Part shown: positions 3,586 to 48,852 of the stretch, one piece after another
How the letters are laid out: each line of letters starts with the position of its first letter
Position numbering within the stretch: position 1 is the stretch's first letter
IMG/VR virus record: IMGVR_UViG_3300003323_000307
Span: 1 to 64,000 of that record
Source of the DNA: a virus
Reading direction: 5' to 3' (one strand)
DNA length: 64,000 nucleotides
The notes under the pieces: generated by a model
What the model was told of the DNA's origin: nothing
Databases searched by the model: none
Seen by the model: the letters and a program-made list of their open reading frames with translations, nothing else
Translations under genes and position numbers: made by a program

Positions 3586-4110
3586 ATGCACAAGGACAGA
3601 AGTGGACTCCGAGGGCTTGTGATTGTTTCACTTTACGGGCCTTATGGGGACCTCAAACATCGGCAGGAAATAGAAAACCTTATTACTACAGCCGGTGATG
3701 AATACTATGCTAAGCGTTCAGGTGCCAACATTGCACCAGCTAACCCCATATATAATACAAAAGTGACCGGCATGAAACTGGGGACCGGGGCAGTACTACC
3801 CTCTAAGTCCGGATCAAACTCTGCCTTAGGTAGCTACGTGACAGGATCTAATATCTCGTTTCTCACTGGTTACCCTGTATTCCAGCAGAGGCCCTCGGAT
3901 GCCGGTTGGGACCTTTTGTACTATGGACAATGGGGGCCAGGTGTGGCTACAAACTCGGCCCTTACAGAAGCTGTTATAGTCACAGATTCTGCCTCTAACG
4001 CCACGTCTACTTCAGCCAACACTATATCCCGAGTCACGTTCTCTGCTGTGAACAAGACCGCTGCTGACACCCTGGAAATTTCCTGGGCACACACTTTCCT
4101 AGGAGCCTGA
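3586..4110 (+). CDS. Putative tail/appendage protein
   Basis: 174 aa, family not recognised. A mixed N-terminus (SLYGPYGDLKHRQEIENLI) is followed by a Thr/Ser/Asn-rich beta stretch typical of phage surface appendages, ending in a compact SWAHTFLGA tail. The start codon has no strong Shine-Dalgarno. It sits between the two halves of the split tail protein and one base before the next gene, so it is probably virion-associated. It could be an adhesin or a decoration domain carried by recombination. Confidence 0.7.
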   Translation: MHKDRSGLRGLVIVSLYGPYGDLKHRQEIENLITTAGDEYYAKRSGANIAPANPIYNTKVTGMKLGTGAVLPSKSGSNSALGSYVTGSNISFLTGYPVFQQRPSDAGWDLLYYGQWGPGVATNSALTEAVIVTDSASNATSTSANTISRVTFSAVNKTAADTLEISWAHTFLGA

Positions 4111-4111
4111 T

Positions 4112-4654
4112 ATGTCTGATCTTATTGAATCTGGCCGGATGTTCACAGAGGTGCGGATTCTTAAATACCGTGCTGAGGATATTCCCGAAGGTCAGCCTAT
4201 TAAGTCTGTAGAGCCCTACGAGATTACGGATGCAGGTCAGCCAGGGAACCTTCTGGTAAACGGCGGAATTAACCGCATCTGGGGCCAGCTCAACTCTAAC
4301 ACCCAGGTATGGGATCAGACTCATACAGGTATTGGGGTAGGGAACAGCAGCACTGCTGCTGCGGCATCTGATAACAACCTGCTTGGAGCCTCTAAGAGGT
4401 TTAACCAGTGTGATTCTGGATTCCCTAGCCTCCCAGGGGTTCAGAATATTCAGTTTGCTGCTACGTTTGGTACGGCAGATGCTAACTTTGCGTGGAACGA
4501 GTATGGAATTGTAGTACCTAACACCTCTACCACATTCACAGCGGGGGGCACCTTGCCCACTAACTATGTACTGTTGAACCGGAAAGTAGTTAGCCTGGGG
4601 ACTAAGACGTCTTCGGATATCTGGATCTTTACCGCTACCATGACTCTAGCCTAA
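4112..4654 (+). CDS. Putative tail/appendage protein
   Basis: 180 aa, family not recognised. It begins 2 bases after the preceding stop. N-terminus contains FTEVRILKYRAEDIPEGQP; the rest is beta-rich with VLLNRKVVSLGTKTSSDIW near the end. Closely coupled to the upstream gene, so the two probably act together. Likely a tail surface or fibre-attachment protein; function is inferred from position only. Confidence 0.72.
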   Translation: MSDLIESGRMFTEVRILKYRAEDIPEGQPIKSVEPYEITDAGQPGNLLVNGGINRIWGQLNSNTQVWDQTHTGIGVGNSSTAAAASDNNLLGASKRFNQCDSGFPSLPGVQNIQFAATFGTADANFAWNEYGIVVPNTSTTFTAGGTLPTNYVLLNRKVVSLGTKTSSDIWIFTATMTLA

Positions 4655-12045: not shown

Positions 12046-12179
12046 TGAAGAACAAAACTGTATGGATTATTGCTGGTGCTATAGCCGCCGTTACGGCCAT
12101 CATCGCGCTCCTGTACATGGCTTCTGATGGGGGCTATGGAGACGGAGATGGCCGGGGAATCTATGGGATGTCAATATGA
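12045..12179 (+). CDS. Small single-pass membrane protein (possible antiholin or second holin)
   Basis: 44 aa. One strong membrane helix at residues 6-25 (WIIAGAIAAVTAIIALLYM), then a Gly/Asp-rich tail. Overlaps its neighbours by 1 base upstream and 4 bases downstream, which indicates translational coupling within the lysis cassette. Confidence 0.68.
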   Translation: MKNKTVWIIAGAIAAVTAIIALLYMASDGGYGDGDGRGIYGMSI

Positions 12180-13003
12180 GTGCTAAAAGTAAAAAGGTAG
12201 CTACTTGGGCAGCAGCAGGTACTGTAGCCCTGGGTGGTGTTCTGGTAGGGCTGGGACAATTTACGGACAAACCGGACGCCAATGATTTCCCCCCGTTCAA
12301 TGCCAACCCGGGCTTGACTATCAATGACCTGGACGGTAAGAAAGACCCGGAAGCTCAGAAGGTTGACAACAACCAGGATGAGCAGAAATCCTCAGACGAA
12401 CGCCCTGGGGAAATCAAGCTCAAAGGGGATGCTGTCAAGAACCAGTTCGAGAAATCCAACCCGTTGATCTCAGACTTCTGCCGATCCAGTATTCTGGAGC
12501 CAGGTGAGGGGAAGAACAACAAGGGCGGTACATGTGTTTCGTATCCGATTGGTGAAGTTGCGAAGAACTCTGTACGAGTCACGGTTGACAACCCTCCGTC
12601 GGTCGTCAACAAGGGCAAGGACTTCAAGATCAAAATCCGGGTCGAAGACAACAAGGGTCCGCTCGACCTGAATGCCTTCACCTTCGATGAGACTGGCGGG
12701 GCGGGTACCACGTTTCTTGAGAACCCCGGGAAGCTGGACAAGGACGGGCGTCCGTTCGCTCATTGCCACCTAGGAATTACCAGCCTCAAGGGCGGTATCA
12801 ATGGACTCCCGGGCAACGATTACGACGCGGCGTTCAAGGGAGTCCAGGGCTTCAAGGGTAACGTGGAAGCCACTGTCAGTGGTCTGGAGCCCGGGTTCTA
12901 CCGAGGTGATGTCTACTGTTCACAGCCGGGGCATCTGATCCTCCCCACTGCTAAGGCTACCCAGGTTCAGGCGTTCGACACCTTCAGGTTCGAGGTCAAC
13001 TAA
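12176..13003 (+). CDS. Membrane-anchored, possibly copper-binding beta protein
   Basis: 275 aa. An N-terminal signal/anchor helix (about residues 9-27) is followed by an acidic and charged linker and a C-terminal beta domain. The domain has candidate metal ligands: an FAHCHLGI segment, resembling the HCH motif of multicopper oxidases, and YCSQPGHLI, resembling a cupredoxin Cys-x4-His loop but without the usual Met. I cannot assign a family. It overlaps the next membrane gene by one base. A cupredoxin-type role is a hypothesis; an uncharacterised Ig-like surface protein is the alternative. Confidence 0.6.
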   Translation: MSAKSKKVATWAAAGTVALGGVLVGLGQFTDKPDANDFPPFNANPGLTINDLDGKKDPEAQKVDNNQDEQKSSDERPGEIKLKGDAVKNQFEKSNPLISDFCRSSILEPGEGKNNKGGTCVSYPIGEVAKNSVRVTVDNPPSVVNKGKDFKIKIRVEDNKGPLDLNAFTFDETGGAGTTFLENPGKLDKDGRPFAHCHLGITSLKGGINGLPGNDYDAAFKGVQGFKGNVEATVSGLEPGFYRGDVYCSQPGHLILPTAKATQVQAFDTFRFEVN

Positions 13004-13809
13004 TGCTCGGAGTGCTTACTTTCACCATGGTCATGGGCGTCACTTCGGTGATGTCTTGGCTGTGGATGAATGGCAAGCTGGGCGAGATCATAGAGAACAA
13101 CAAGAGAACAATGTATTCCGGTGGGAGAACAGTAGAGTTCTCCCTCTGGAAATGGCACTTCTCCATCAACATCAACAAGGCATTCTGGGTAAGGCTGGCT
13201 TTTGTAGTCCTGGGGCCAGCCGCTATCCTTGGGCTCACAGTGGCCTATGCGGAGATCCTACCCCTTCGTGTGATGTTCGCTCTCTATGTACTGCCGAGTT
13301 ACCTTGCCATGATAGTGCTGGGTATCCTATACCCTGAACAAGGCAAGAGGGCCGCGTTCGGTTTCACCATGGGGGTTCTGGCTACAGTCCTGTACGACGT
13401 TGTCCGTATGGTTGCTGTTGTAGCTCTAGGTCTCCCGGACCCCATTCCGCATATCGGAGCCCTGTGGGTGGGGCAAGCGGCTTTTGATCCTAGTCAGTGG
13501 TGGATCGGGTATCTGTGGAGGATGTTCGGCAACGGTGCGGGCATGGGTGTCACCTACGCCATGCTTCCTAGGTTCATGTATGACCTCAAGGGTGGGTGGA
13601 TTTATGGAGAAGTCGTGGGCATGGGAATGTTTGCAGCAATGTTCTTCTTCCCAGCAGTCCAGCTTCACCTGTTCCCCCTGAACTATGTGGTCACTGTGAA
13701 TGGTATTCTAGGACACTGGGCCTATGGCCTGGCCTTGGGCTGGATATTCGAGAGATCCAAGGTCGTCAGAGATTTTGCCGTAAATGGATTGGTCAAGCGC
13801 AAAGAGTGA
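13003..13809 (+). CDS. Polytopic membrane protein
   Basis: 268 aa with about seven hydrophobic helices (for example TFTMVMGVTSVMSWLWM, ALYVLPSYLAMIVLGILYP, GMGMFAAMFFFPAVQLHLF). Met, His and Trp are frequent inside helices. Family not recognised. Coupled (TAATG) to the secreted beta protein upstream, so the two probably form one membrane system. Large for a holin; an envelope-modifying or metal-transport role is possible but unproven. Ends just before a terminator. Confidence 0.68.
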   Translation: MLGVLTFTMVMGVTSVMSWLWMNGKLGEIIENNKRTMYSGGRTVEFSLWKWHFSININKAFWVRLAFVVLGPAAILGLTVAYAEILPLRVMFALYVLPSYLAMIVLGILYPEQGKRAAFGFTMGVLATVLYDVVRMVAVVALGLPDPIPHIGALWVGQAAFDPSQWWIGYLWRMFGNGAGMGVTYAMLPRFMYDLKGGWIYGEVVGMGMFAAMFFFPAVQLHLFPLNYVVTVNGILGHWAYGLALGWIFERSKVVRDFAVNGLVKRKE

Positions 13810-19548: not shown

Positions 19549-20064
19549 CTACTCTACTACTGGGACGTACACCCGTGGGGTGTCGGAGTCAGTTGTCAAG
19601 GGTCCCTCAGGGACCCAGAAAAAGGCCCAAGCCTTTATGTCAATGATAGCATCCCCTGTTTGAGTATAGTTGACATCAACTTTCCATTTCTTAGGGATGG
19701 GGTTAGTTACTCCGCCGTAGGGGTCCCACTCAAAACTTGGATAATTCTTAACATAATTAACTTCTACAGTGTCATAGTAAGGCTCAAAGGGTGGGAAAAT
19801 ATATCCACCGGATATGACAATGGCATTAGGGTTGGGATGAACAACCTCTAGATTTTGGGTGAGAGTAACTGGTTCTGGGTCAGCCCCAAGAAAAGCCTCA
19901 TCATAATAACGAGCAACCCCGTACCCCAGCTTAGCGCCATCATTACCATCGATCCCCGGAGGCCCAACAGGACCTACTGGACCTACCGGGCCAGGCTCAC
20001 CCGGATTACCCGGGGCTCCCTGAGGTCCCTTGAAGTATTCGACTACGTAGTCAATGAAACCCAT
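19549..20064 (-). CDS. Collagen-like fibre protein
   Basis: 171 aa. The start at 20064 is chosen because it lies 2 bases after the upstream stop with GGTGG in front, and gives MGFIDYVVEYFKGPQG. Residues 12-41 are Gly-x-Pro repeats (GPVGPVGPVGPPG), followed by a beta-rich domain. The product looks like a tail or capsid appendage but is encoded on the opposite strand from other fibres and coupled to a secreted muralytic protein, which is unusual. Confidence 0.82.
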   Translation of the reverse strand: MGFIDYVVEYFKGPQGAPGNPGEPGPVGPVGPVGPPGIDGNDGAKLGYGVARYYDEAFLGADPEPVTLTQNLEVVHPNPNAIVISGGYIFPPFEPYYDTVEVNYVKNYPSFEWDPYGGVTNPIPKKWKVDVNYTQTGDAIIDIKAWAFFWVPEGPLTTDSDTPRVYVPVVE

Positions 20065-20066
20065 TA

Positions 20067-20396
20067 CTACCACCAACCATTCGTTCGCCAAAACGCCAAG
20101 GCGTTTTCCCAGGTACCATACCTGGAAGTCATGTAATTGCTCCCCCACCTATGCTGTCCAGCCACATCCCCCAATGAGGGGCAGGCATGAACTGTCGGCA
20201 GACACTGGTACAAACCTACCGCGCCACTCGACTTATTTACAGCATAGGGGTTTCCGCTAGATTCCAAGCGGATGATTGTGTTTCTTGCAGCATTGTCCGT
20301 CCATACGGATTGCGGAGCTGCTTCCGCCGCCATGCTTGGGATCATTATTGTCGCTACTGCCATAAGGCCGACGCTTAGCATCTTGATCTTGCGCAT
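20067..20396 (-). CDS. Secreted lysozyme/transglycosylase-like protein
   Basis: 109 aa. Signal peptide of about 27 residues ending AEA-APQ. The mature part has a short SLT/resuscitation-factor-like core: catalytic Glu candidate in IIRLESSGNPYAV, SSGAVGLYQCLP, and W/Y-rich end (YGTWENALAFWRTNGWW). It would be exported by the host Sec system and act on peptidoglycan outside the membrane. Possible roles are late lysis help or wall remodelling. Confidence 0.83.
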   Translation of the reverse strand: MRKIKMLSVGLMAVATIMIPSMAAEAAPQSVWTDNAARNTIIRLESSGNPYAVNKSSGAVGLYQCLPTVHACPSLGDVAGQHRWGSNYMTSRYGTWENALAFWRTNGWW

Positions 20397-21551: not shown

Positions 21552-21905
21552 GACTCAACTCACCCAGCTCGTTTGTGAAGTAGATGTCTCGAATACCAAC
21601 CGAGTGTATCAATTTCATACAACGGCTGCAAGGCCGCGATAGTGCGGGTTCTCCTGCGTTGTTCACACGGGCTACATAGATGCTACAACCCTTCAGTGAA
21701 CTGGTAATAGACGCCTCCGGATTACCATCTCTTCAGCATGGTGGGTAGCTCCGTTGTGATCGATGAACGGGTCACAACGGAACACATTCGTTTCTACTTC
21801 GAGGAGCCTAGAACCTCGGACAAGGCAGCAGCCGTGTTTCCAACGGTGATTGCTGCTTTGTGCAGCCCGGAGAGCAATACTGATAAAACGGTCTTGCCTG
21901 CCCAT
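21520..21905 (-). pseudogene. CMP/dCMP-type deaminase with a frame break
   Basis: The first frame (21905 to about 21720) gives the deaminase N-terminus with the zinc/proton motif HHAEEMVI. It then runs into a stop at 21693. The -1 frame continues the fold as EASITSSLKGCSIYVARV, then the second zinc motif SRPCSRCMKLI, and ends at 21520. One base is missing around 21714-21720 (CGGAGG). Either a real inactivating mutation, a sequencing error, or a frameshift. A separate intact dCMP deaminase exists at 35134. Confidence 0.72.
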
Positions 21906-22693
21906 AGGAAGCCCTTAACAATTCGCTTGATGCCGTCTGTGACTTCTGCTGCTATATCTCGTACCCAGGCTAAGACTTTGTCAAACATATCCGGACCTTC
22001 TGATTCATCGTCAGGTAGTGGTTCTGTGAGCTTGGCGATCACAGCAGGATCGCTGTAGACATCCACGCACGTTGTACAGTTGGTCTTGCAGGGAGATCCG
22101 TCTTCGAGAGGGAACCGGCACCAGAAGGCCAGCTCGAACAGCTCTCTGGGCATGTCTGCCAGGATCTCCGTCTTGGTCATCTCCTGCAACGGACGTTCGA
22201 TGGTGATGTTCCTGCGACGGGCGCAGATGTACATCATCCGGGTCCGAGCCTTGATTACTTTGCCGTTGGGGTACTTGGTGGAAGTGTCACCGACAATGTT
22301 CCAGTATGCAAGGCGAGTGATCCAGGGCCTTGCCCGCAGGATTGTTCCGGCCATAGCCATAACAATCTCGGGGTCACGCATTCTCTGCATATGAGGGGCT
22401 GGGGGTAGAACCGCAGCAGAGTCAATGTACTCGTAGTTCGTCAGTCCTTGCTTGTCGAACCAGGAGAGAACTTTTTCAACTGCCTGCGACTCATAACGCA
22501 TTCTATGACGGCTAGTGAGGTGGCAGTGGTGAATGAGGACTCGTTCACCAGCAAGGAGGAGTTTGTAAGTACCGTAAACGGAATCAATACCACCTGAAAG
22601 ATTAGATAAAACAGTATGAGTCTGGTCAGCGTCATTGAATTCCCGGTTCTTGAGGAGGTATTTTCCTCCAAGCTCCCACTCATTGTGAGACAT
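21794..22693 (-). CDS. PP-loop ATPase, QueC-like, with C-terminal amphipathic extension
   Basis: 299 aa. N-terminal PP-loop SGGIDSVYGTYKLL (adenylation of the substrate by ATP), and a Cys cluster WCRF...SPCKTNCTTCVD that matches the zinc site of 7-cyano-7-deazaguanine synthase (QueC). Residues about 228-299 are an extra amphipathic/hydrophobic tail absent from QueC. No FolE, QueD or QueE is seen in the window, so substrates would come from the host or from outside the window. A nucleobase- or DNA-modification role is the main idea. Confidence 0.75.
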   Translation of the reverse strand: MSHNEWELGGKYLLKNREFNDADQTHTVLSNLSGGIDSVYGTYKLLLAGERVLIHHCHLTSRHRMRYESQAVEKVLSWFDKQGLTNYEYIDSAAVLPPAPHMQRMRDPEIVMAMAGTILRARPWITRLAYWNIVGDTSTKYPNGKVIKARTRMMYICARRRNITIERPLQEMTKTEILADMPRELFELAFWCRFPLEDGSPCKTNCTTCVDVYSDPAVIAKLTEPLPDDESEGPDMFDKVLAWVRDIAAEVTDGIKRIVKGFLWAGKTVLSVLLSGLHKAAITVGNTAAALSEVLGSSK

Positions 22694-24031: not shown

Positions 24032-24250
24032 TTACTTAGATGCCCCGAACAGAGCTTCCTTCCAACCGTTTAGAACCGCGAGACCAGCGTCCGCAAGAGC
24101 TGCAACGATATCGCTGATAAACTGAAACGCTAGTGTAAGCACGTCCCTGACGAACAAGATCAGTGCTTCCACAGGAAGGGCAACTAGCATCCACGCCATC
24201 ATACAGACCCGGATTAGGGTGGGAAGGAGTCCACGCCCGCAGTGAGACAT
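24032..24250 (-). CDS. Small membrane protein nested in the exonuclease gene
   Basis: 72 aa, a good GGAG 9 bases before the ATG. Two hydrophobic/amphipathic helices (MMAWMLVALPVEALILFV, then a long helix ending FGASK). It lies in another frame over the last 215 bases of the exonuclease gene and stops 4 bases after it, so both frames appear to be used. The tail resembles the C-terminal extension of the PP-loop protein at 21794. Confidence 0.5.
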   Translation of the reverse strand: MSHCGRGLLPTLIRVCMMAWMLVALPVEALILFVRDVLTLAFQFISDIVAALADAGLAVLNGWKEALFGASK

Positions 24251-24770
24251 ATAATTTCTCCGTAATTTTTACATCGTGTATATTGTAGGAGCGCATTTCG
24301 TTCCAGGCTTGGTTGCTTCCATTAAGGCACTTACGCCAAAGATCGAAACCTGTATGCTTAATTTTAGCACCAAGATTGAGCCTCTGGACAACATAGTCCA
24401 GCTTGTTCGAGGGGAAGCGGAACTTACGCTTGACAACCTTCATCAGATCTACAGATACATACGGAGCTGGAGGAGGCATTCCAGCCTCTAGAAATTCCTT
24501 GTTCAACCACGGCAGGTCAAACCTGTCCCCGTTGTAGTGGACTACCACATCGGCTTCATTGAGCATGTCCCACGCAGCCTGGACCATGGCATCTTTACCG
24601 TTGTGATGTACGGAATAGTAGTGGACTTTCTTTTTGTCCATCCACTTCCCCGCAAAACACAGAACCTCACCAGAGTCAACTATTTGATTGAGGCCGATGT
24701 TCTGGTCCCACAGCCCCCAGCAATACACCAGGTTCGGCCCGGTTTCGATATCCAAGGTCAGTACGCGCAT
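24036..24770 (-). CDS. DnaQ/RNase H-like 3'-5' exonuclease with C-terminal zinc ribbon
   Basis: 244 aa from the start at 24770, directly after the upstream stop. Exonuclease motifs: TLDIETGP (ExoI), VVVHYNGDRFDLPWL (ExoII), and YNIHDVKIT (ExoIII Asp). Residues about 205-235 form a zinc ribbon (CPSCG ... YRCSSCG). Likely a DNA-processing or repair exonuclease acting with the nearby polymerase. Confidence 0.85.
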   Translation of the reverse strand: MRVLTLDIETGPNLVYCWGLWDQNIGLNQIVDSGEVLCFAGKWMDKKKVHYYSVHHNGKDAMVQAAWDMLNEADVVVHYNGDRFDLPWLNKEFLEAGMPPPAPYVSVDLMKVVKRKFRFPSNKLDYVVQRLNLGAKIKHTGFDLWRKCLNGSNQAWNEMRSYNIHDVKITEKLYVSLRAWTPSHPNPGLYDGVDASCPSCGSTDLVRQGRAYTSVSVYQRYRCSSCGRWSRGSKRLEGSSVRGI

Positions 24771-25250: not shown

Positions 25251-25715
25251 TTAATGCTCATGAGTATGCCCATCTTCCTGAGCCACCTTGAAGGTGACCG
25301 TCTGGTCCGCCGACTTCTGGAAGTCGAACGTGATGGTGGTAGTCTGCCCCACCTTAAGGTGGCCCTTGAGGTTGATCAGCATCACATGGGGTGTACCCGT
25401 GAAGACCACTTCAGAGCGCTTGGGGAGTGGTACGGAGTCCAGCTTGACCATCTTCCCGGACTCAATGGTGTGCAGCTCAGCAGAGACCGACGTGGGGCTT
25501 GAGACAGCTAGGAGAGTGTCATTGGCGGCGCCCTTGTTGATCACCTTCAGGGTGGCGTACGTGTCCTTCCCCTTGTGACCCGTAACTACGAATCCAGGCC
25601 GCACTGTGAGGTCAGGCTTAGGGTCACTTCCGGAGTTGAAGAACAGGTACCCCAGAACGGCCAGAGTAATGGCTATCAGGATGATGATGTACTTCTTGTA
25701 CTTGTCAGACTTCAT
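25251..25715 (-). CDS. PCu(A)C-type periplasmic/extracellular copper chaperone
   Basis: 154 aa. N-terminal membrane anchor at residues 7-26, then a beta-rich domain. The four Cu(I) ligands expected for the family are visible: His in SAELHTIESG, Met in SGKMVKL, and an HVM pair 20 residues later (GTPHVMLINL), followed by a typical LKVGQTTTITFDF. The His-Met spacing is shorter than in most members. The C-terminus is His-rich (EDGHTHEH). In bacteria this family delivers Cu(I) to cytochrome oxidase. ATGA overlap with the HNH gene upstream. Confidence 0.82.
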   Translation of the reverse strand: MKSDKYKKYIIILIAITLAVLGYLFFNSGSDPKPDLTVRPGFVVTGHKGKDTYATLKVINKGAANDTLLAVSSPTSVSAELHTIESGKMVKLDSVPLPKRSEVVFTGTPHVMLINLKGHLKVGQTTTITFDFQKSADQTVTFKVAQEDGHTHEH

Positions 25716-26155
25716 AGCCTGGACCTTCTGACCCTCTCATTTTGGTTATGGCATTCTCTGCAAGAACGCCAACCTGTCTTTGCTTTGTAGGTGTTGCTAT
25801 CAGAATACTTATGACCCTTAGGGCACACTAGCTTAATCTTATTGTAATTCCTATTTCTAGTGTCCCTATCGGCTGCGTTATCCTTAGAAGTACCTATTTC
25901 CAAGTGGGCAACAGCAATACAGTTCCGGACATCACATTTATGACGAACTACCATATTGTCTGGGATAGGGCCGTAATGTAATAGATACTGCAACCTGTGA
26001 GTAAGATACCTCTTTTTATTTACTTGTATTTGGCCATAGCCATTTTTAAGTTGAGTGCCCCTCCATAGCCGACAACTTCCTGACTTTATGCTCCTAGAGA
26101 ATAGCTTCTCTTTAGCTATAGTCTGCTGCTGGGTCGTAAGGTTCAAGGTCTCCAT
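25712..26155 (-). CDS. HNH homing endonuclease
   Basis: 147 aa. HNH core: GYGQIQVNKKRYLTHRLQYL, VVRHKCDVRNCIAVAHLEIG, with a C-terminal CPKGHKYSD ... CRECHNQ zinc knuckle. Its start overlaps the polymerase 3' end by 44 bases out of frame, and its stop overlaps the copper-chaperone start (ATGA), so it is closely embedded between the two. Confidence 0.85.
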   Translation of the reverse strand: METLNLTTQQQTIAKEKLFSRSIKSGSCRLWRGTQLKNGYGQIQVNKKRYLTHRLQYLLHYGPIPDNMVVRHKCDVRNCIAVAHLEIGTSKDNAADRDTRNRNYNKIKLVCPKGHKYSDSNTYKAKTGWRSCRECHNQNERVRRSRL

Positions 26156-28058
26156 AAGTCGGTCCCAATTCTACGTCCACTGCAAAAGGTGTATCACTCT
26201 CAAAAGGGGGGGTTGTCATGGTCTCACACATGTATGCAATGGCCTCGTGGATGAACTCCTTGCGAACATTGGCCACCAGTGAGTCATGAACTGACAAGAT
26301 GATACGCCCCCAGCCCCTCTCTTGCAATCCCCAGTGAACTTTGATCAAGGACGAGAGGCACAGATCAGAAGCCATGGACTGTCCAGGGAAGTTGACAGCC
26401 TGGTTGTTTACCTTGTTGTAGTTGTCCTTGGTGATGAGATTCCAGCGTCGTTTACGGCCAAGCTCAGTGGTCAGGAAGAACTGACTATGAGCCTGTTCCC
26501 GCCATTCGTCACAGCACATTTTCCATGTGGAGTACATGTTCCAGAAGGTGTCAAGGAACTCTTGAGCCTTGTCAGGGTCCCCACCTGTGGCTGCTTCCAT
26601 TGCAGGATCAAGGGACAGCTTGAAACCAGAGATACCATAGCCTGCGCCGAAGTTGACTGACTTCACTGACTGACGTTCTGTCGGTGTAACCTCTGACGCA
26701 GGCTTGTTGTAAACCTCTGCTGCAAGAGCAGTATGGACATCCCATTCCCCTGTGAGGTTTTCCAGAAGTACTGGGTCCCCTGTAAGGTGATGGGCAATGA
26801 ACATCTCCAGAGACTTATAGTCAATGTTTACGATGAGATGTTCATCATCGTCTGCCATAAACAGACGCTTTACCGCTTTAGAGTTTTGGCTATACTTAGG
26901 TACAGTTTGCATCGCAGGATCGTGAATCGCAATACGACCTGTTTTCGTACCGAAGAGTAGGAAATTCGGATGTACTTTCCCGTCTTCAGCCACGAACTTC
27001 TGCATTCCCTCCAAGAAGTTTCGACGTAGATACTGTAGTTCTTTGTACTCAGCAACAAGCTTGGCCAGAGGATGATTACCGTTATATTTCCAAAAATCTT
27101 TATTCGTTGTGTTTTTAGGTTCATGTGGCAAACCCTTCATGTTCAGAATATCGTAGCACAAATGCTGCATCTGTTCTGAAGAGTTCACATTAAGAGTTAC
27201 ATCAACCTCAGTTCGGTATCGCTTGTCTGAGCAGCGCTCACAAGTATCGAGAGTCGCACCAGATTCTCTAAGTCGTTTAGCGTACGACAGGACTCGTAGT
27301 CCGTCCAGGAGTCCGTGGTGTTCTTCAGGTACGCACTCACAGATGACCTTGTAACGTCGGCCAATTCCGGAGTCAGGTCGGGGGAATCCCACGGATGCGG
27401 CATAATCCTGAACATTCTTGATTGCCTCCTCGATCTTGGGGAGCCATTCGGCTGAAGTGGTACGGGCATACTCTACATCACAGCGCATACCCTGGTATTC
27501 AATGTCGGCAAAAGCAGCCTGGGCAGGAAGGAGGATCTCCTTGACGGCTTTCCAGGTCCCCTCCTTTGTGACACGCTTGGACAGCACGGGGAGGAGCCCG
27601 TAAGTGTAGAAGACGTCCTTGCAGCCGTATTCAGCCAGAACATCCGGGCGGATATGGCCGAAGTTCCACTTCTTCTTGTCCGTGTCCAGCCACTCTTCAA
27701 GGCCCTCTTCATAGAACGGGGCGTCGAGGTCCTGGCGGGAGCGGTATTTCAGACCTACCTGGCGGGCCTTCTCTGTGGTTCCCAGGGCCAGGCACATGGT
27801 GTCCACACTGCGTTCATCTACAGAAACACCCAGCCAATGCTTCACCATCTTGGCATCATGTTTAACGTTATGCCATACAAACCTAGCATTGGGGTGGTTA
27901 AGGAGCCGCTGTACTAGAGGCTTCACACGGGGGTCATTGATGACACCCCAGTTGAATGCATACGCAATTGCACCGTCGTAGAGCTGCAACATAGTCAGAC
28001 TGTGGAAGGGGTTTAGGTCAAAAGACTCTGTGTCAGCCGCGAAGATTTTTTCTGGCAT
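26112..28058 (-). CDS. DNA polymerase I (family A) with 3'-5' exonuclease domain
   Basis: 648 aa from ATG at 28058 (MPEKIFAADTES). Exonuclease Asp/Glu in AADTES; palm motif A NIDYKSLEMFIAHHL; motif B RQSVKSVNFGAGYGISG; motif C SVHDSLVA (usual HDE replaced by HDS). A Cys4-type insertion (CEC ... CERCSDKRY) lies between the exonuclease and the palm. No 5'-3' exonuclease domain. This is the replicative polymerase. Its first five codons overlap the 3' end of the upstream HNH gene. Confidence 0.93.
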   Translation of the reverse strand: MPEKIFAADTESFDLNPFHSLTMLQLYDGAIAYAFNWGVINDPRVKPLVQRLLNHPNARFVWHNVKHDAKMVKHWLGVSVDERSVDTMCLALGTTEKARQVGLKYRSRQDLDAPFYEEGLEEWLDTDKKKWNFGHIRPDVLAEYGCKDVFYTYGLLPVLSKRVTKEGTWKAVKEILLPAQAAFADIEYQGMRCDVEYARTTSAEWLPKIEEAIKNVQDYAASVGFPRPDSGIGRRYKVICECVPEEHHGLLDGLRVLSYAKRLRESGATLDTCERCSDKRYRTEVDVTLNVNSSEQMQHLCYDILNMKGLPHEPKNTTNKDFWKYNGNHPLAKLVAEYKELQYLRRNFLEGMQKFVAEDGKVHPNFLLFGTKTGRIAIHDPAMQTVPKYSQNSKAVKRLFMADDDEHLIVNIDYKSLEMFIAHHLTGDPVLLENLTGEWDVHTALAAEVYNKPASEVTPTERQSVKSVNFGAGYGISGFKLSLDPAMEAATGGDPDKAQEFLDTFWNMYSTWKMCCDEWREQAHSQFFLTTELGRKRRWNLITKDNYNKVNNQAVNFPGQSMASDLCLSSLIKVHWGLQERGWGRIILSVHDSLVANVRKEFIHEAIAYMCETMTTPPFESDTPFAVDVELGPTYGDLEPYDPAADYS

Positions 28059-28491
28059 ACCAATCCCTTTGAGCTTTCTTCCTACACTCACTACATCTGC
28101 GGTTACGACGAGTCTCAGCTAACTTGTGGATACCCTTTTTGCAGTATTCATATTCTCTACCTGCATTAGAGGGAGCCCGGCCCCGGGCGTACATATCCTG
28201 TAGATTCTCAGCTTGTGTGCCCAGCTCCAAATGACTAGGGTTCACACACGGGGGGTTGTCACAACGGTGACGGACAACTAGCCCTTCGGGTATATTTCCA
28301 AAATGTAGTACCCAAGAAAATCTATGAGCTTGCCATATAAAGCCTCCAGCTCCTCCCTCCGAAATTCGACCATACCCTCTACTATTACGACAAGCTAACC
28401 ATACCCAGCAATCATCCTCACCTTGTATATCTACTTTCTCCCAAAACCTAGCCTCTGTAGGTTTATTCTGGCTTCCTTTAGGTCTCCCCAT
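28033..28491 (-). CDS. HNH homing endonuclease
   Basis: 152 aa. EDDCWVWLACRNSRGYGRI, RFSWVLHFGNIPEGLVVRH, CDNPPCVNPSHLELG and a C-terminal CSECRKKAQRDWYARKN. It overlaps the glycosylase gene upstream (14 bases) and the polymerase downstream (26 bases). Its YARKN codons in another frame are the start codon and first residues (MPEKI) of the polymerase. Confidence 0.87.
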   Translation of the reverse strand: MGRPKGSQNKPTEARFWEKVDIQGEDDCWVWLACRNSRGYGRISEGGAGGFIWQAHRFSWVLHFGNIPEGLVVRHRCDNPPCVNPSHLELGTQAENLQDMYARGRAPSNAGREYEYCKKGIHKLAETRRNRRCSECRKKAQRDWYARKNLRG

Positions 28492-29137: not shown

Positions 29138-29483
29138 TGTCCATCTTCCACTTCACAAGCTCCGCGAGGAGCACATTGAAACAAATAGCCATTGCATGAT
29201 CTTCTGAGGTATCTCCGCCAAAGTACTGCATCATATGGCGGAACATACTCTCCTTAGCACGGTCCAGCTCAGCCGGGGAATTCCCCAACTCGAAGTTTCT
29301 CTTTGAGTATTTGATACTCCCTCGTGTGAGAAGCTGGGCCAAGCGGGTCAGGAACTGATCTTCATAAGGGACGCCTTCATGCCACAAGAGCATGAAGTTA
29401 TCCTTGGTAGCCCCGTCAGCATCTCGGACCATGCCACTCGCGTACTCTTCGCGGGTGCCGGAGTCCTTGGTCTCGAAAGTCAT
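29100..29483 (-). CDS. dATP/dGTP pyrophosphohydrolase-like protein (DUF5664/MazG-type)
   Basis: 127 aa. REEYASGMVRDADGATKDNF, YEDQFLTRLAQLLTRG, and the metal-binding helix pattern ELDRAKESMFRHMMQYF with DTSEDHAMAICFN are those of phage all-alpha dNTP pyrophosphohydrolases. Adjusts dNTP pools, fitting with ThyX and dCMP deaminase nearby. Confidence 0.8.
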   Translation of the reverse strand: MTFETKDSGTREEYASGMVRDADGATKDNFMLLWHEGVPYEDQFLTRLAQLLTRGSIKYSKRNFELGNSPAELDRAKESMFRHMMQYFGGDTSEDHAMAICFNVLLAELVKWKMDNAQAEQEGPTEL

Positions 29484-29920
29484 CTTAAATAGTCCAATGC
29501 CCTCTTCAAATACTCCGGAGAATCTTGAAATAGCCCTAAAGCTCTATTACAACTTCCACATAGGAGCCCTCTAACACAGCTACCACATGAAGATATTCCA
29601 GAGCAACAACTGTGATCATGATCTATAGTTAGCTCCGTTGAAGCTTGGCATATAGCACAAAGTCCTTGCTGAGCGGCCACCATCTCTTGATATTTAGCTA
29701 AACTTAGTCCGTAGCGTCCAGTTATCAGGTTTCTCTTAAATGCCTCTTTACCCTTAGGACTCTCCCTATATCGTTTCGAGCGCTCTCTATCTGCCTCAGC
29801 TTTACAGGGACCACAGTACCGTTTTCTGTAAGGTCTTTCCTTACCGCATCTAGGGCAATTAGGGTCTCTAGGGGGCAACTCTACCGAACTCCGTAAAATA
29901 GGCCATGGCTTGTGGTGCAA
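29480..29920 (-). CDS. Recombination endonuclease VII-type HNH protein
   Basis: 146 aa. N-terminal zinc ribbon (CPRCGKERPYRKRYCGPC), then the EndoVII core GLCAICQ ... LTIDHDHSCC ... VRGLLCGSCNRALGLFQ. Resolves branched DNA in T4; free-standing homing copies are common. The start overlaps the ThyX 3' end by 53 bases, typical of the mobile genes here. Confidence 0.85.
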   Translation of the reverse strand: MHHKPWPILRSSVELPPRDPNCPRCGKERPYRKRYCGPCKAEADRERSKRYRESPKGKEAFKRNLITGRYGLSLAKYQEMVAAQQGLCAICQASTELTIDHDHSCCSGISSCGSCVRGLLCGSCNRALGLFQDSPEYLKRALDYLR

Positions 29921-35520: not shown

Positions 35521-35702
35521 TCACCACCCCGCTGCACGAACCCTGCCACAAACTCTTGGGCATTCTCTTCAAGCACGTCATCTATCTCATCAAGAATATC
35601 CATAGTAGATTCTTCCAGCTCCTCATTACTGAGGTCCTTAGCTTCTACCTCTTCAGCCTCTTCGGTTGTCCCGGTACTCTTGGTTTTCTGGTCCTGGCCC
35701 AT
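35517..35702 (-). CDS. pup: Prokaryotic ubiquitin-like protein (Pup) homologue ending in GGE
   Basis: 61 aa from ATG at 35702 (upstream in-frame codons would add a 38-residue basic part unlike Pup). Residues 1-30 are disordered, rich in Thr, Glu and Lys. The C-terminal half carries the conserved Pup region LDEIDDVLEENAQEFV ending FVQRGGE. In bacteria Pup is attached by PafA to substrate lysines through its C-terminal Glu, often after Dop converts GGQ to GGE; here Glu is already encoded. The coiled-coil part would contact Mpa/ARC and PafA. Located between an HNH gene and dCMP deaminase. Confidence 0.9.
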   Translation of the reverse strand: MGQDQKTKSTGTTEEAEEVEAKDLSNEELEESTMDILDEIDDVLEENAQEFVAGFVQRGGE

Positions 35703-35976
35703 TTGGACCCCAATCTCTTTGATAGCAATAATCACAACCGGAGCACGAGTCAGCTTTTTTCTGGTTGCATACCTTATGTACCAATTGTAGATTACCCGGG
35801 GAAGAGATTCCGCCATGCGACCGTGGGCGGATGTGATCTATGTTCACGGCGTCGGTAAACAACTGTCTCTGGCGGATCTGGCGCCCACATATCCCGCACC
35901 GGTAGCGTTGGCTTATCCACAACCGCTTTTTCGGGTGTACCCAATTCTTAGGCTTCCATTTCTTCTTGCGGCTCAT
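35653..35976 (-). CDS. HNH nuclease
   Basis: 107 aa. CGICGRQI, VNIDHIRPRSHGG, GNLQLVHKVCNQKK: a compact HNH with Cys4 support. It ends 50 bases inside the Pup coding region in another frame and starts 3 bases after the helicase gene's stop. Confidence 0.85.
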   Translation of the reverse strand: MSRKKKWKPKNWVHPKKRLWISQRYRCGICGRQIRQRQLFTDAVNIDHIRPRSHGGISSPGNLQLVHKVCNQKKADSCSGCDYCYQRDWGPNGPGPENQEYRDNRRG

Positions 35977-35979
35977 AGA

Positions 35980-37355
35980 TCATTCGTCCCTCGCCCACTT
36001 GGCCATAGCTTCCGCAATACCGGAGAAACGGCCATCCAGGACTTGCTTGATGGCCATGTCTACTGACCCTTTGGCTCGGACGTGGTGCACCTGCACGACG
36101 CGTCCTTGCCCCCTCCTGCACACCCGTTTAATGGTTTGCTCGATATCGGCAGGTAGTTCGGAGTGTTCGAGGAAGACGACGTCTGTAGCTTCTGTGAGGC
36201 TGATGCCTTCTTTGAGGCTTGGGATGGTCGCGACAAGAACTTGCGGACCATCACTAGCTCGCCATTCTGCAATGACAGATTCACGCCTTCCTGGGAGAAC
36301 GGAACCTGTGACAAGTACCGCTTGGCTGCCCAGAGCATCAGCGATCGCGCCAGCCGAATCTTTATACCATACGTAAACCACCACTTTAGATCGGCGATCT
36401 GTGAGGAAATCTTTGAGCCAATCGATTTTCGGGTTAGCTTTCGTAGGCGGTACAGTCGCAATCTGACGCTGTTTGACATAGAGAGCACCAGAGCCTTTGA
36501 GAAATTCAGTATGTGCCAGATCTTCATGCTCCAGTACATAATCCTTCTTCGCTTTCTTGATCATCTTGACTACCGAGGCAGGCAGCTCCACCTGGTATTC
36601 ATGCTCCTGATATTCCAGGCTGGCTAGCTGCGGGATCTCAGCCACCGTACGACGCATGCTGAACTGGGCAAGCTCTTGCTTGAACTGCTCTACGTAGTCT
36701 TTGCGTATGTTGCCGACTGTGGTTGACCAGGGATTTGTATAGACCACACACCGGTCGTTGACAAATTTCCAGTACGAGGAGTATTTCTTTTTATCGTAAA
36801 GATGAAAATACGGGAAGAAGTCTCCGCCATCACGCACAAACGGGGTACCCGTAAGAACCCAGATGGGTGTTTCCCGGTTACTACTAGCAGATAGTCTCGT
36901 TTTAAAGGTATGCTTCGTCCACGCAGAATTACGGCCACGGAGTCTGTGCCCCTCATCGAAGATGTACGCTGACCACTTACGGCCTACAAGTAGTCCCCCG
37001 TACGTATAGTCTCGACCTTTTTTCGCCGCCCAGTTGTGGTAAGACGTGAGTATGAAATCCGCGTTGCTCGAAAGTGCTTCGCTACGAAGTTCAGTACCGG
37101 ATCCGTCAGCCGATACCACAGTGGCATCCGGGCAGAAGGCATTGATCTCCTTTACGGTATTAGGTATAAGGTACGCTGGGCATGTCCATAGAACTGGGTT
37201 TCCAGTCCTCTGGATAAGTTCCCAACCTGCCATAATACTAGGTCCAGTTTTCCCAACTAAACTCCGGGCTCATCAAAAAGCCCGGCAAACCTCCCTGAGT
37301 TAAGTAGGAAGTCTCTAGACTCTACCTGGTAGTCATCCAGAATTTTTTCTGGCAT
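35980..37355 (-). CDS. SNF2-type helicase, Walker A region interrupted (stop plus +5 shift)
   Basis: The gene starts at ATG 37355 (GGAG 8 bases upstream): MPEKILDDYQVESRDFLL ... LFDEPGV then UAG. Skipping 5 nt from GTT (37262-37260) to the next GTT (37257-37255) restores DEPGVGKT and joins the frame that continues MAGWELIQ to the end; total 456 aa. Further motifs: YIFDEGHRLRG, WVLTGTPF, and helicase C-domain ATIPSLKEGISL with IKRVCRRGQ. The ATG at MAGW has no ribosome site. Either a bypass, a real mutation or a 5-bp duplication error. Confidence 0.75.
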
Positions 37356-37779
37356 AGTAGTTTCTCCAAGCCTCATTTTTGCAGATACGACATTGAGTAT
37401 ACCCATCAGCTCTTGGAGTACTATTTGCTTTGGTGAGAAGGTGGCCCTTTAGACACCGGAATCTTCGGGGTCTACGTTGGCAATTTTCCTTTGGGGTTAC
37501 CAAGTCTAAGTGTCTCGGGTTTACACAGTCCCTATATCTACATTTGTGATCCAATTGCATATTATTAGGCTTGGGTCCATTAAATTGTTCCCAAGAAAAT
37601 ACGTGAGCCTTAACCGATTTCCTGTGATGTACTGCAAAAACTCCATAACCTTGTTGCACTGACCCTAACCAGTGCCAACAGCCTTCAGTCTTCTGGACTT
37701 TACTCCAGAATCTATCTACAGGGTCGGTTAATATAAATCTACCTGAACCATCCCTTGTTGTCACTGACCCTTCTTCCAT
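37333..37779 (-). CDS. HNH homing endonuclease
   Basis: 148 aa. GCWHWLGSVQQGYGVF, VFSWEQFNGPKPNNMQLDHK, CRYRDCVNPRHLDLV, C-terminal CRICKNEAWRNYYARKN. Overlaps the upstream gene (19 bases) and the helicase (23 bases). As with the HNH gene at 28033, its YARKN codons supply the MPEKI start of the next gene. Confidence 0.87.
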   Translation of the reverse strand: MEEGSVTTRDGSGRFILTDPVDRFWSKVQKTEGCWHWLGSVQQGYGVFAVHHRKSVKAHVFSWEQFNGPKPNNMQLDHKCRYRDCVNPRHLDLVTPKENCQRRPRRFRCLKGHLLTKANSTPRADGYTQCRICKNEAWRNYYARKNSG

Positions 37780-42642: not shown

Positions 42643-42968
42643 TGGTCGTCCTCATCGTCATCGTCGTCATTGTCAACAGCCAGCCAATCAAGAATATCCT
42701 GGCTCTGCTGCTGCTGTTTGACAGCTTCCAGCATCCCTAGAACTTCCCAGGAAGATGACGGTTTGGTCGTCTCGTAATGGAGAACCCTGTTCCCCGTAGG
42801 GGTGATGGCCTCGACAATGAGAAGACCCTTTGTCATGACACTCCCTTTGTGGAAGTGCTTCCAGTAGTGCTCGACGATTTCGATAGGGTGTTCGAAGTCA
42901 TCAGCTTCGTTGGAGGCATCGCCCATGTTATTGACAATATCCTCGAAGTTGTCTTTGTCTTCACTCAT
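42639..42968 (-). CDS. Protein with acidic tail
   Basis: 109 aa. Ends in a run of Asp/Glu (DNDDDDDEDDQ), a feature of phage SSB-like and DNA-mimic proteins. Centre has HYWKHFHKGSVMTKGLLIVE. Function unknown. Confidence 0.7.
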   Translation of the reverse strand: MSEDKDNFEDIVNNMGDASNEADDFEHPIEIVEHYWKHFHKGSVMTKGLLIVEAITPTGNRVLHYETTKPSSSWEVLGMLEAVKQQQQSQDILDWLAVDNDDDDDEDDQ

Positions 42969-43296
42969 TGTCGTTACCTAACTCTAGGGGGATTGCCTTC
43001 AATTTGATGAAACGATGGCTGGAACCCCTTCGGGTTCTCTGTGAAACAGTAAGTCCGCCCCATATTCCATACTCGAAGCGTGCATCGCAGGCTTCTTTCA
43101 GACATTGGAGGCGGACTGGACATTGTGAGCAGATGGATACTGCTAGGATTTCATCCCCGGGCTCCTCGGAAAACCATAAGTCTACAAGACTAGGTTCTAT
43201 CTGAACGAGTCTCCCGCATTCGGCACTGGACTGCCAAGAAAAGTAATCGTGGGCAGAGTCATCCGATGACGCGTGATTGTCTCGGGCTTCTGCCAT
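42961..43296 (-). CDS. WhiB-family iron-sulfur transcriptional regulator
   Basis: 111 aa. Four Cys in the family pattern (AECG, then SICSQCPVRLQC), a further Cys in LKEACDARFEYG and the GIWGG turn (YGIWGGLT), then a basic C-terminus (RTRRGSSHR). Wbl proteins bind a 4Fe-4S cluster and host sigma factors. Phage WhiB proteins can redirect host gene expression and block superinfection. Confidence 0.92.
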   Translation of the reverse strand: MAEARDNHASSDDSAHDYFSWQSSAECGRLVQIEPSLVDLWFSEEPGDEILAVSICSQCPVRLQCLKEACDARFEYGIWGGLTVSQRTRRGSSHRFIKLKAIPLELGNDNE

Positions 43297-43790: not shown

Positions 43791-44138
43791 TTATCGGTAA
43801 TTACCGCGCCTGCGCCGGTCACTTTTGCGTTTATTTTCGTAATGACACGCTCTACACCTACGGTGCATTTTGTCATCCCGCTTCACAAGGAGTGTGTTGG
43901 ACTCGGTGAACTCATGACCCTTTTTACAATGTGTAGAAGGGGTGTGGGGAGGCTTTGTGACCTTGGTTCCACCCCCTATAACCCATTTCCATGTGACACC
44001 CCGGACTATGTACCCGATGGTGGCAGGGTCAACATTGTACTCCTCAGCCAGGGACATGTAGGTGTTACCACCCATGGCGTACCTGGCACGTACATCTTGG
44101 ACTGTTTGCTCGGTAAGTTTGGCGTTGTGGGTCGACAT
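43791..44138 (-). CDS. HTH protein with zinc knuckle, homing-gene relative
   Basis: 115 aa from ATG 44138. MSTHNAKLTEQTVQDVRARY, a helix-turn-helix (LAEEYNVDPATIGYIVRGVTW), and CKKGHEFTESN ... CRACHYENK like the tails of the HNH genes, but no HNH core. Probably a degenerate or DNA-binding derivative of a homing gene. Starts 1 base after the previous stop. Confidence 0.72.
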   Translation of the reverse strand: MSTHNAKLTEQTVQDVRARYAMGGNTYMSLAEEYNVDPATIGYIVRGVTWKWVIGGGTKVTKPPHTPSTHCKKGHEFTESNTLLVKRDDKMHRRCRACHYENKRKSDRRRRGNYR

Positions 44139-44139
44139 G

Positions 44140-44328
44140 CTAGGAGGGCATCCCGTAGTTGTCCTCGTTTGGGCCTTGCGACTCCCAACCGGGTGCCCAC
44201 TTATCACCATGCAGTTTCTCTTGCTCAATAGCTTCTCGCTGAACAGCTTCCTGATAACGCATTTCATCCATGTCCCATTGCCTGAACATTATGTCGAGGA
44301 ACTTTTCTTCGATCTCTAGCGGGTCCAT
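44140..44328 (-). CDS. Small charged helical protein
   Basis: 62 aa, rich in Glu, Gln and Met (LDIMFRQWDMDEMRYQEAV). Unknown function; overlaps the gene before by 13 bases. Confidence 0.65.
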   Translation of the reverse strand: MDPLEIEEKFLDIMFRQWDMDEMRYQEAVQREAIEQEKLHGDKWAPGWESQGPNEDNYGMPS

Positions 44329-45793: not shown

Positions 45794-46054
45794 TCAGAGA
45801 GCCTTTCTCACCAAATCGAGGTGGAGATCAAGGTCGAAGTTTGCATCTACCAGAGTCCATAGTCGGACGGAGTAGTCGGAGCGCATGAATACCTTTGCTG
45901 CCCCACCGTTCTCCGCCACATCCTCTAGGCTGTCGAGGAATGAATACGCGAGGTGGGTTCCGTCATCTGCTACGTCATGGACGTATGCCAGGTATGCCCC
46001 GCCGGTTGTCGTGTAAAGCGCTCCGGCCTTCAGTTCAGGGCCTTCACTGCTCAT
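45794..46054 (-). CDS. Protein of unknown function
   Basis: 86 aa from ATG 46054. GALYTTTGGAYLAYVHDVADDG suggests a small beta domain (SH3-like). Overlaps the Imm-like gene by 11 bases. Confidence 0.65.
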   Translation of the reverse strand: MSSEGPELKAGALYTTTGGAYLAYVHDVADDGTHLAYSFLDSLEDVAENGGAAKVFMRSDYSVRLWTLVDANFDLDLHLDLVRKAL

Positions 46055-46271
46055 CTCTGCCCCAATCGGTAAGGCTGTGCTTGATAGGCTTAGGCCGGTC
46101 GGGGAGAGGCTTGACGGCAAACACCAGCGAGACCACCCAGAACACCAGGGTGAAGCCGAAGAAGTTCATTACGGCCACCTGGGCGACGTTGTCGGTCTTC
46201 CGGGCCAGAGCTACCCCTGTAGGAAGCCAGTACAGCGCGAACAGCATGATCAGGAGAATGACGCTACCCAT
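46044..46271 (-). CDS. Superinfection immunity protein, T4 Imm-like
   Basis: 75 aa from ATG 46271 (GGAG upstream, overlapping the previous stop). Two membrane helices with the family pattern LFALYWLPTGVALAR and NFFGFTLVFWVVSLVFAV. T4 Imm blocks DNA injection by superinfecting phage. Confidence 0.75.
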   Translation of the reverse strand: MGSVILLIMLFALYWLPTGVALARKTDNVAQVAVMNFFGFTLVFWVVSLVFAVKPLPDRPKPIKHSLTDWGRDEQ

Positions 46272-46458
46272 ACCAGTACTCCGCATCGGGTTCGACGACG
46301 TTGTTAGGAACGAGGGAGGCGTCATACGCCCCCATGAGCCACGTTTCGTACTCAGAGTGCTCATACCACCTTGGAGATGGCACGGTCTCTCTGAAGCCCG
46401 CATAGGGGCTGTTGTTGAGCCAGACTTCCATCTCCTCCCACGTCCGGAACTCACGCAT
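46264..46458 (-). CDS. Small protein of unknown function
   Basis: 64 aa from ATG 46458, aromatic-rich (RTWEEMEVWLNNSPYAGF). Coupled to the Imm-like gene downstream. Confidence 0.62.
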   Translation of the reverse strand: MREFRTWEEMEVWLNNSPYAGFRETVPSPRWYEHSEYETWLMGAYDASLVPNNVVEPDAEYWYG

Positions 46459-48378: not shown

Positions 48379-48852
48379 TCAGAAAGTGATGTTCTCGGAG
48401 AGCTTCCGACGTTCTCGGAGGGTATTACACACCCGGCACTTCCGGTGCCCGTTCGGCCTGATGTACGTGTTGACTTCGTTGTACTCATGCCCATGCGGGC
48501 AATGCGTCTTGTTCTTTTCAGGGTGCCTGCCCCGGCTCGAACAGTCAAGCATGTTCTGTGAGGTGTTACCCAGCTCCAAGTGCTCCGGGCGAACACACCC
48601 AGGGTTATCACACTTGTGTCGGACCACAACCTTGCGGTTGTCATCGTCCACCACTGGAATCGGGCCGAAATGGAGTTCATACGAAAACCGATGAGCCCCT
48701 ATCTCTCGGGGCTTACCGGCTTCCGACACATGCATCCGACCATAGCCGTTGCTGGTCCGATTACCCTCCCACTCCCAGCACTCATGGAATGGGATAAAGG
48801 CTATCGAATTCCAGTACTTCAGAAGGAGACGTTCTCCGAGAGTTTGCGACAT
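48379..48852 (-). CDS. HNH homing endonuclease flanked by a target repeat
   Basis: 157 aa. CWEWEGNRTSNGYGRM, VVRHKCDNPGCVRPEHLELG, CPHGHEYNEVNTYI, CRVCNTLRERR. Starts out of frame within the last 34 bases of the FtsK-like gene and ends in RRKLSENITF, a copy of that gene's own end (CRKLSENVSF). Confidence 0.86.
   Translation of the reverse strand: MSQTLGERLLLKYWNSIAFIPFHECWEWEGNRTSNGYGRMHVSEAGKPREIGAHRFSYELHFGPIPVVDDDNRKVVVRHKCDNPGCVRPEHLELGNTSQNMLDCSSRGRHPEKNKTHCPHGHEYNEVNTYIRPNGHRKCRVCNTLRERRKLSENITF

Follow-up and report, generated by a model that had tools for sequence, protein, structure and literature searches.

What a copper chaperone of the bacterial respiratory chain would be doing among the replication genes of a phage is the question raised by one gene in the window (the whole stretch of DNA analysed here, 64,000 nucleotides of a 71,668-base record that is classed as a virus). 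PCu(A)C proteins are a well-known bacterial family whose normal role is the supply of copper to the respiratory oxidase. The gene occupies positions 25251 to 25715 on the minus strand, with its ATG at 25715 and its stop at 25251, and its 154 codons encode a protein of 154 amino acids. The open reading frame and coordinates proposed by a previous sequence-only reading were correct and the strand has been corrected to minus; on the plus strand this interval is interrupted by stops and offers no open frame. A Shine-Dalgarno-like AGAAGG was read from the sequence 8 bases 5′ of the ATG (25724 to 25729, minus strand), and a scan for promoters and terminators around the gene gave no clear signal.

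The first evidence on the origin of the gene comes from its neighbours. An HNH_3 endonuclease gene (25712 to 26155, minus strand; PF13392, E 1.5e-13) lies directly upstream, and its stop overlaps the start of the PCu(A)C gene in an ATGA at 25715-25712. Also upstream is the family A DNA polymerase gene polA (26112 to 28091, minus strand; phrog_17, E 1.5e-89), and downstream, separated by two small open reading frames, is the gene for the exonuclease subunit of the DNA polymerase (24036 to 24767, minus strand; phrog_403, E 1.4e-97). The PCu(A)C gene sits within the phage replication block, between the polA/HNH genes and the exonuclease gene, and this location, together with the ATGA overlap, makes a stray piece of host DNA very unlikely. 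The same contig also carries terminase, lysin and r1t-type holin genes, which upholds the earlier claim of a phage genome context. With phage genes on either side of a cell-type metabolic gene in a virus contig, the locus has the gene arrangement by which a candidate auxiliary metabolic gene is recognised. The codon usage of the gene (GC3 0.75, index 0.81) is near that of the portal gene (index 0.80) and other core genes and unlike that of its HNH neighbour (index 0.66), which speaks against a very recent arrival.

The host of the phage can be approached through a WhiB-family regulator gene located at 42961 to 43296 on the minus strand (PF02467, E 4.3e-14). To our knowledge, WhiB proteins are confined to Actinobacteria and the phages of Actinobacteria, and the presence of this gene suggests that the host is probably actinobacterial. 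The terminase is nearest to those of Methanobacterium phage psiM2 and of Gordonia phages, with less than 50% identity, and the G+C content, about 0.48-0.57, does not single out a host genus. The link to Streptomyces in the earlier reading is not supported by these data; the WhiB gene suggests no more than an actinobacterial host.

The assignment of the protein to the PCu(A)C family was confirmed by several comparisons. The Pfam profile PF04314 (PCuAC) matched it with 66.9 bits (E 1.7e-18) over profile positions 11-109 of 109, against a curated cut-off of 29.4 bits; PCuAC was the sole Pfam family found for the protein, and this protein alone matched the family across the 71,668-base record (E 5.2e-20). 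A phmmer search of the PDB returned PCu(A)C proteins exclusively below E 0.001, among them AccA (9yah, E 3e-7), SCO3965 (3zja, E 1.7e-5) and DR1885 (1x9l, E 1e-4). When a profile built from the phage protein and its homologues (20 sequences) was compared with the PDB, PCu(A)C proteins were found at E 5e-40 to 3e-21, far above any others. The AlphaFold model (pLDDT 90) was compared with known structures by Foldseek and VIA-align, and the top matches were SCO3965 (Z 17.9) and AccA (Z 17.6), with an rmsd of 1.5-1.6 Å; SCO3965 superposed on the model at 1.5 Å over 113 residues. On the profile matches and the model, the phage protein is a true PCu(A)C member with a predicted cupredoxin-like fold. 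The sequence-only reading had called it PCu(A)C-type, and this stands: the profile search pointed to no other fold and the structure comparison ranked a Streptomyces Cu(I) chaperone first.

The Cu(I) site was predicted from the ligand alignment at codons H82 to M112 (25380 to 25472, minus strand), with the arrangement H-x6-M-x20-H-x-M. The textbook PCu(A)C motif is H(M)x10Mx21HxM (PMC9145763), and it has also been given as HxnMx21/22HxM (PMC13006917), whose ligand order H, M, H, M the phage protein shows with n = 6 and a second spacing of x20. Of the earlier description, a His and a Met followed by an HVM pair at the family spacing, the four ligands were all recovered, whereas the spacing agrees only loosely (x6/x20 versus x10/x21 or x21/22). 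The short x6 spacing between H82 and M89 is common to SCO3965 and three cellular homologues (L004, L008 and L009). The x20 spacing between M89 and H110 is one below the usual x21/x22 because the GG loop has lost one residue, and a spacing of x19 occurs in another cellular homologue (L020). All four predicted ligands (H82, M89, H110 and M112) are invariant across 19 of 19 cellular homologues, although the homologues were partly retrieved through the stretch HVMLINLK, so that the agreement at H110-M112 was selected for and the independent test comes from the Pfam score and from the matches to PDB proteins. In AccA of Neisseria, the site formed by these four residues binds Cu(I) with sub-femtomolar affinity and is essential, whereas the protein can do without its tail (PMC13006917). 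The phage protein adds to the family a compact variant (x6, x20) of the predicted Cu(I) site.

The remainder of the protein consists of a transmembrane helix (residues 4-26) preceding the cupredoxin-like domain (about 34-147) and a tail, EDGHTHEH. The codons of the N-terminal anchor cover 25638 to 25706 on the minus strand, where the helix of the AlphaFold model overlaps the hydropathy maximum (top 19-residue mean 2.34, at residues 10-28). The N-terminus is Lys-rich and is followed by the hydrophobic helix, an arrangement that suggests an outward (extracytoplasmic) topology. No lipobox Cys is present, and there are zero Cys in the whole protein, which makes an uncleaved signal anchor more likely than a lipoprotein. 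The His-rich end of the tail, HTHEH (residues 150-154; 25254 to 25268, minus strand), is predicted to be disordered in the model; it is short, contains three His and is comparable to the HMHKHGH, GHKHGY and MEHKH of relatives. Both the membrane anchor and the His-rich tail noticed in the sequence were in this way substantiated, the latter as a type known from relatives.

An ordinary family member has thus been found in an unusual place. INPHARED, the IMG/VR scans, PHROGs and BFVD yielded no further credible phage copy, and the literature searched holds no PCu(A)C gene in any phage. The INPHARED search, a tblastn whose queries were the phage protein and a pair of cellular family members, produced matches limited to MT835550.1 and MT836679.1, two records from faecal samples labelled 'UNVERIFIED: Bacteriophage sp.'. 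In one of them the PCu(A)C gene has Sco and DsbD-type genes as neighbours and in the other EptA and penicillin-binding protein genes, and both were rejected as phage copies, the stretches read looking like pieces of bacterial chromosome. The IMG/VR scans, made with the phage protein, the profile and a second protein, retrieved no PCu(A)C relative, and none of the 24 stretches returned by the motif scan was PCu(A)C; these scans depend on short exact motifs, which divergent copies can escape, and near copies of this genome were possibly left out. The best BFVD match (TM 0.56, 13% identity) was not accepted as PCu(A)C, and PHROGs and NCBIfam gave zero matches for the protein. The terminase has relatives at 57-71% on short contigs; 23 records gave no PF04314 match, which says little because most of them do not include the polymerase region. 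The phage polymerase had no relative in IMG/VR. Cellular relatives are numerous and distant, with at most 39% identity, and a donor search that comprised a genome scan and 201 genomes from the phylum of a Chloroflexi MAG yielded no alignment of useful length with an identity higher than 39%; a donor among Actinobacteria is still conceivable. As a separate observation among cellular sequences, Embleya sp. NBC_00888 (stretch L112, about 4001-4318) encodes a PCu(A)C-like protein whose HxM pair seems to have lost its His ('ANIML'), perhaps an actinobacterial relative lacking the usual copper site.

What such a protein might do during infection can be judged from the known systems. Bacterial PCu(A)C carries Cu(I) outside the membrane and cooperates with Sco in the assembly of the CuA site, with variations (PMC9145763). 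In Streptomyces lividans, copper passes from ECuC to Sco and then to the CuA site of the oxidase and to a second target, probably GlxA (PMC4736821). ECuC/SCO3965 of S. lividans/coelicolor (PDB 3zja, 3zk0) resembles the phage protein in its cupredoxin-like fold and its short H-x6-M Cu(I) site, and its extracytoplasmic location is the one proposed for the phage protein. Identity between the two is 24-25%, and ECuC carries a putative signal sequence that contains Cys and shares an operon with sco, whereas the phage protein has a Cys-free helix anchor, a His tail, the x20 spacing and no adjoining sco. AccA of N. gonorrhoeae (PDB 9yah) shares the fold (Z 17.6), four identical Cu(I) ligands and a tail of His/Met type; it is 32-34% identical to the phage protein, its tail is longer, with eight Met/His, and it activates the nitrite reductase AniA.

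By analogy with these systems, the reading that we prefer, and that we consider about equally likely to prove right or wrong, is that the protein is a membrane-anchored extracytoplasmic Cu(I) chaperone that supplies the Sco/CuA line of the host and keeps aa3-type respiration running during infection. It starts from what was observed, namely the family, the model fold, the intact ligands, the anchor helix and the position in the replication block. The gene would be expressed together with the phage replication genes, the N-terminal helix would insert in the membrane with the cupredoxin-like domain facing outward, and one Cu(I) would be bound via H82, M89, H110 and M112. The copper would then be passed to the host Sco and/or to the CuA site in subunit II of the aa3-type oxidase, and respiration, and hence the supply of ATP, would be spared copper limitation while the phage replicates. 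The proposal assumes that the host has an aa3 oxidase and Sco; neither Sco nor CuA subunit II is encoded in the phage record, and therefore any partner of the protein must be a host protein. The intact frame, the Shine-Dalgarno-like site, the overlap with a phage neighbour and the codon usage typical of well-used phage genes were counted in favour of delivery, and the lack of Sco and subunit II genes in the phage record and the x20 M-to-H spacing, instead of x21/x22, were counted against it. Because loss of ECuC in Streptomyces causes only mild defects that are relieved by 10 µM copper (PMC4736821), and because a contribution of the PCu(A)C-like protein to CuA loading has been questioned in S. 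lividans (PMC3603459), the benefit to the phage may be small or confined to copper-poor conditions.

If delivery to the host oxidase is correct, the phage tops up the final copper-delivery step of aerobic respiration, and phages would then face a bottleneck in the supply of copper to this enzyme. A partial parallel is found in viruses of ammonia-oxidising archaea, which carry MCO1 and amoC, thought to aid host energy metabolism that depends on copper (PMC11849493). Those genes likewise are virus-carried and concern copper-dependent host energy metabolism; they differ in that MCO1 encodes a multicopper oxidase and amoC a subunit of an enzyme, both in archaeal viruses, whereas here a copper chaperone is encoded by a bacterial phage.

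The same ligands and His tail would also serve a copper buffer, that is, a protein that has no delivery partner of its own and, by binding Cu(I) outside the membrane, keeps copper from harming the infected cell or the proteins of its envelope, and the lack of an encoded partner in the phage record fits this explanation. A single-site membrane-bound chaperone would nevertheless be a poor sponge, copper efflux or oxidase genes were not noticed within the 64-kb window and the published PCu(A)C cases tie the family to delivery, so that buffering is an unlikely role. Somewhat more doubtful is the supply of copper to some other cuproenzyme of the host, such as a GlxA-type radical oxidase or a Cu,Zn-SOD, in which case the surface, pellet form or development of the host would be affected and not its respiration. 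This possibility draws on S. lividans, where the effects of ecuc and sco mutations on GlxA maturation and on development do not depend on the oxidase (PMC4736821); against it, a Streptomyces host is not established and the phage genes indicate no such target.

It was also considered that the protein might act on respiration by docking on the host III2-IV2 supercomplex in the manner of LpqE and tuning electron flow directly. A second look at the structure matches revealed III2-IV2 chains of Mycobacterium smegmatis and Corynebacterium glutamicum, the latter with Z 10.2 and 9.8 and 2.7 Å over 107 residues. We infer that the matched M. smegmatis chain is LpqE because it begins at residue 24, the position of the lipidated Cys24 of LpqE, a subunit that was seen solely with the closed, electron-conducting state of cytochrome cc (PMC8523172). 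LpqE, a subunit of the mycobacterial supercomplex, resembles the phage protein in its fold, its membrane anchoring and its place on the outer face of the membrane (predicted for the phage protein), and differs from it in that the PCu(A)C profile does not find it by sequence. In the M. smegmatis alignments the rmsd exceeds 10 Å, all copper ligands are kept in the phage protein and true PCu(A)C chaperones match it far better (Z 17.9). The profile retrieves no supercomplex chain by sequence, which makes the LpqE-like explanation weak, and we regard it as improbable.

A possible second copper protein was noticed elsewhere in the window. The gene at 12176-13003 (plus strand), 3′ of the lysin and holin genes, encodes a secreted-looking protein of 275 amino acids in which 'FAHCHLGI' is followed about 50 residues later by 'YCSQPGHLIL', a resemblance in motif only to the copper loops of azurin and cupredoxins. 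No Pfam, PHROGs, NCBIfam, phage, plasmid or IMG/VR relative and no convincing PDB match was found for it, and its AlphaFold model, made of the protein alone, has a pLDDT of 32. The start of the next gene, 13003-13809 (plus strand), overlaps its end, and this next gene encodes a polytopic membrane protein of 268 amino acids with relatives in none of the libraries searched. That the former protein receives its copper from the PCu(A)C chaperone and would form, with the latter, a phage-made copper redox unit at the membrane of the host is a conjecture to which we attach very little probability.

Least probable of all is a host gene fragment, assembly artefact or functionless passenger, which would agree with a single copy in one metagenomic virus record and with the failure to find a sister phage carrying the gene, and which is contradicted by the phage replication genes on both sides, the ATGA overlap, the intact frame and ligands, the phage-like codons and the low identity (≤39%) of the closest cellular relatives.

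Other features of the genome were observed in passing. A repetitive protein with tandem 'TTWTTAITTAM'-like units is encoded at 721-2346 (plus strand), perhaps as part of a tape measure gene, and a protein containing a brief collagen-like run of GPxGPx at 19549-20148 (minus strand; PF01391 just below the cut-off). The gene at 21794-22693 (minus strand) encodes a QueC-like PP-loop protein (phrog_1550, E 5.7e-20) with an additional C-terminal part and is a possible base modification gene. Seven HNH-type genes were recognised by eye on the minus strand (25712-26155, 28033-28491, 29480-29920, 35653-35976, 37333-37779, 43791-44267 and 48379-48852), Pfam having been applied to the first of them, and the genome would be rich in putative homing endonucleases. 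At 46044-46331 (minus strand), a small membrane protein matches PF14373, the family of superinfection immunity proteins (E 6.3e-9).
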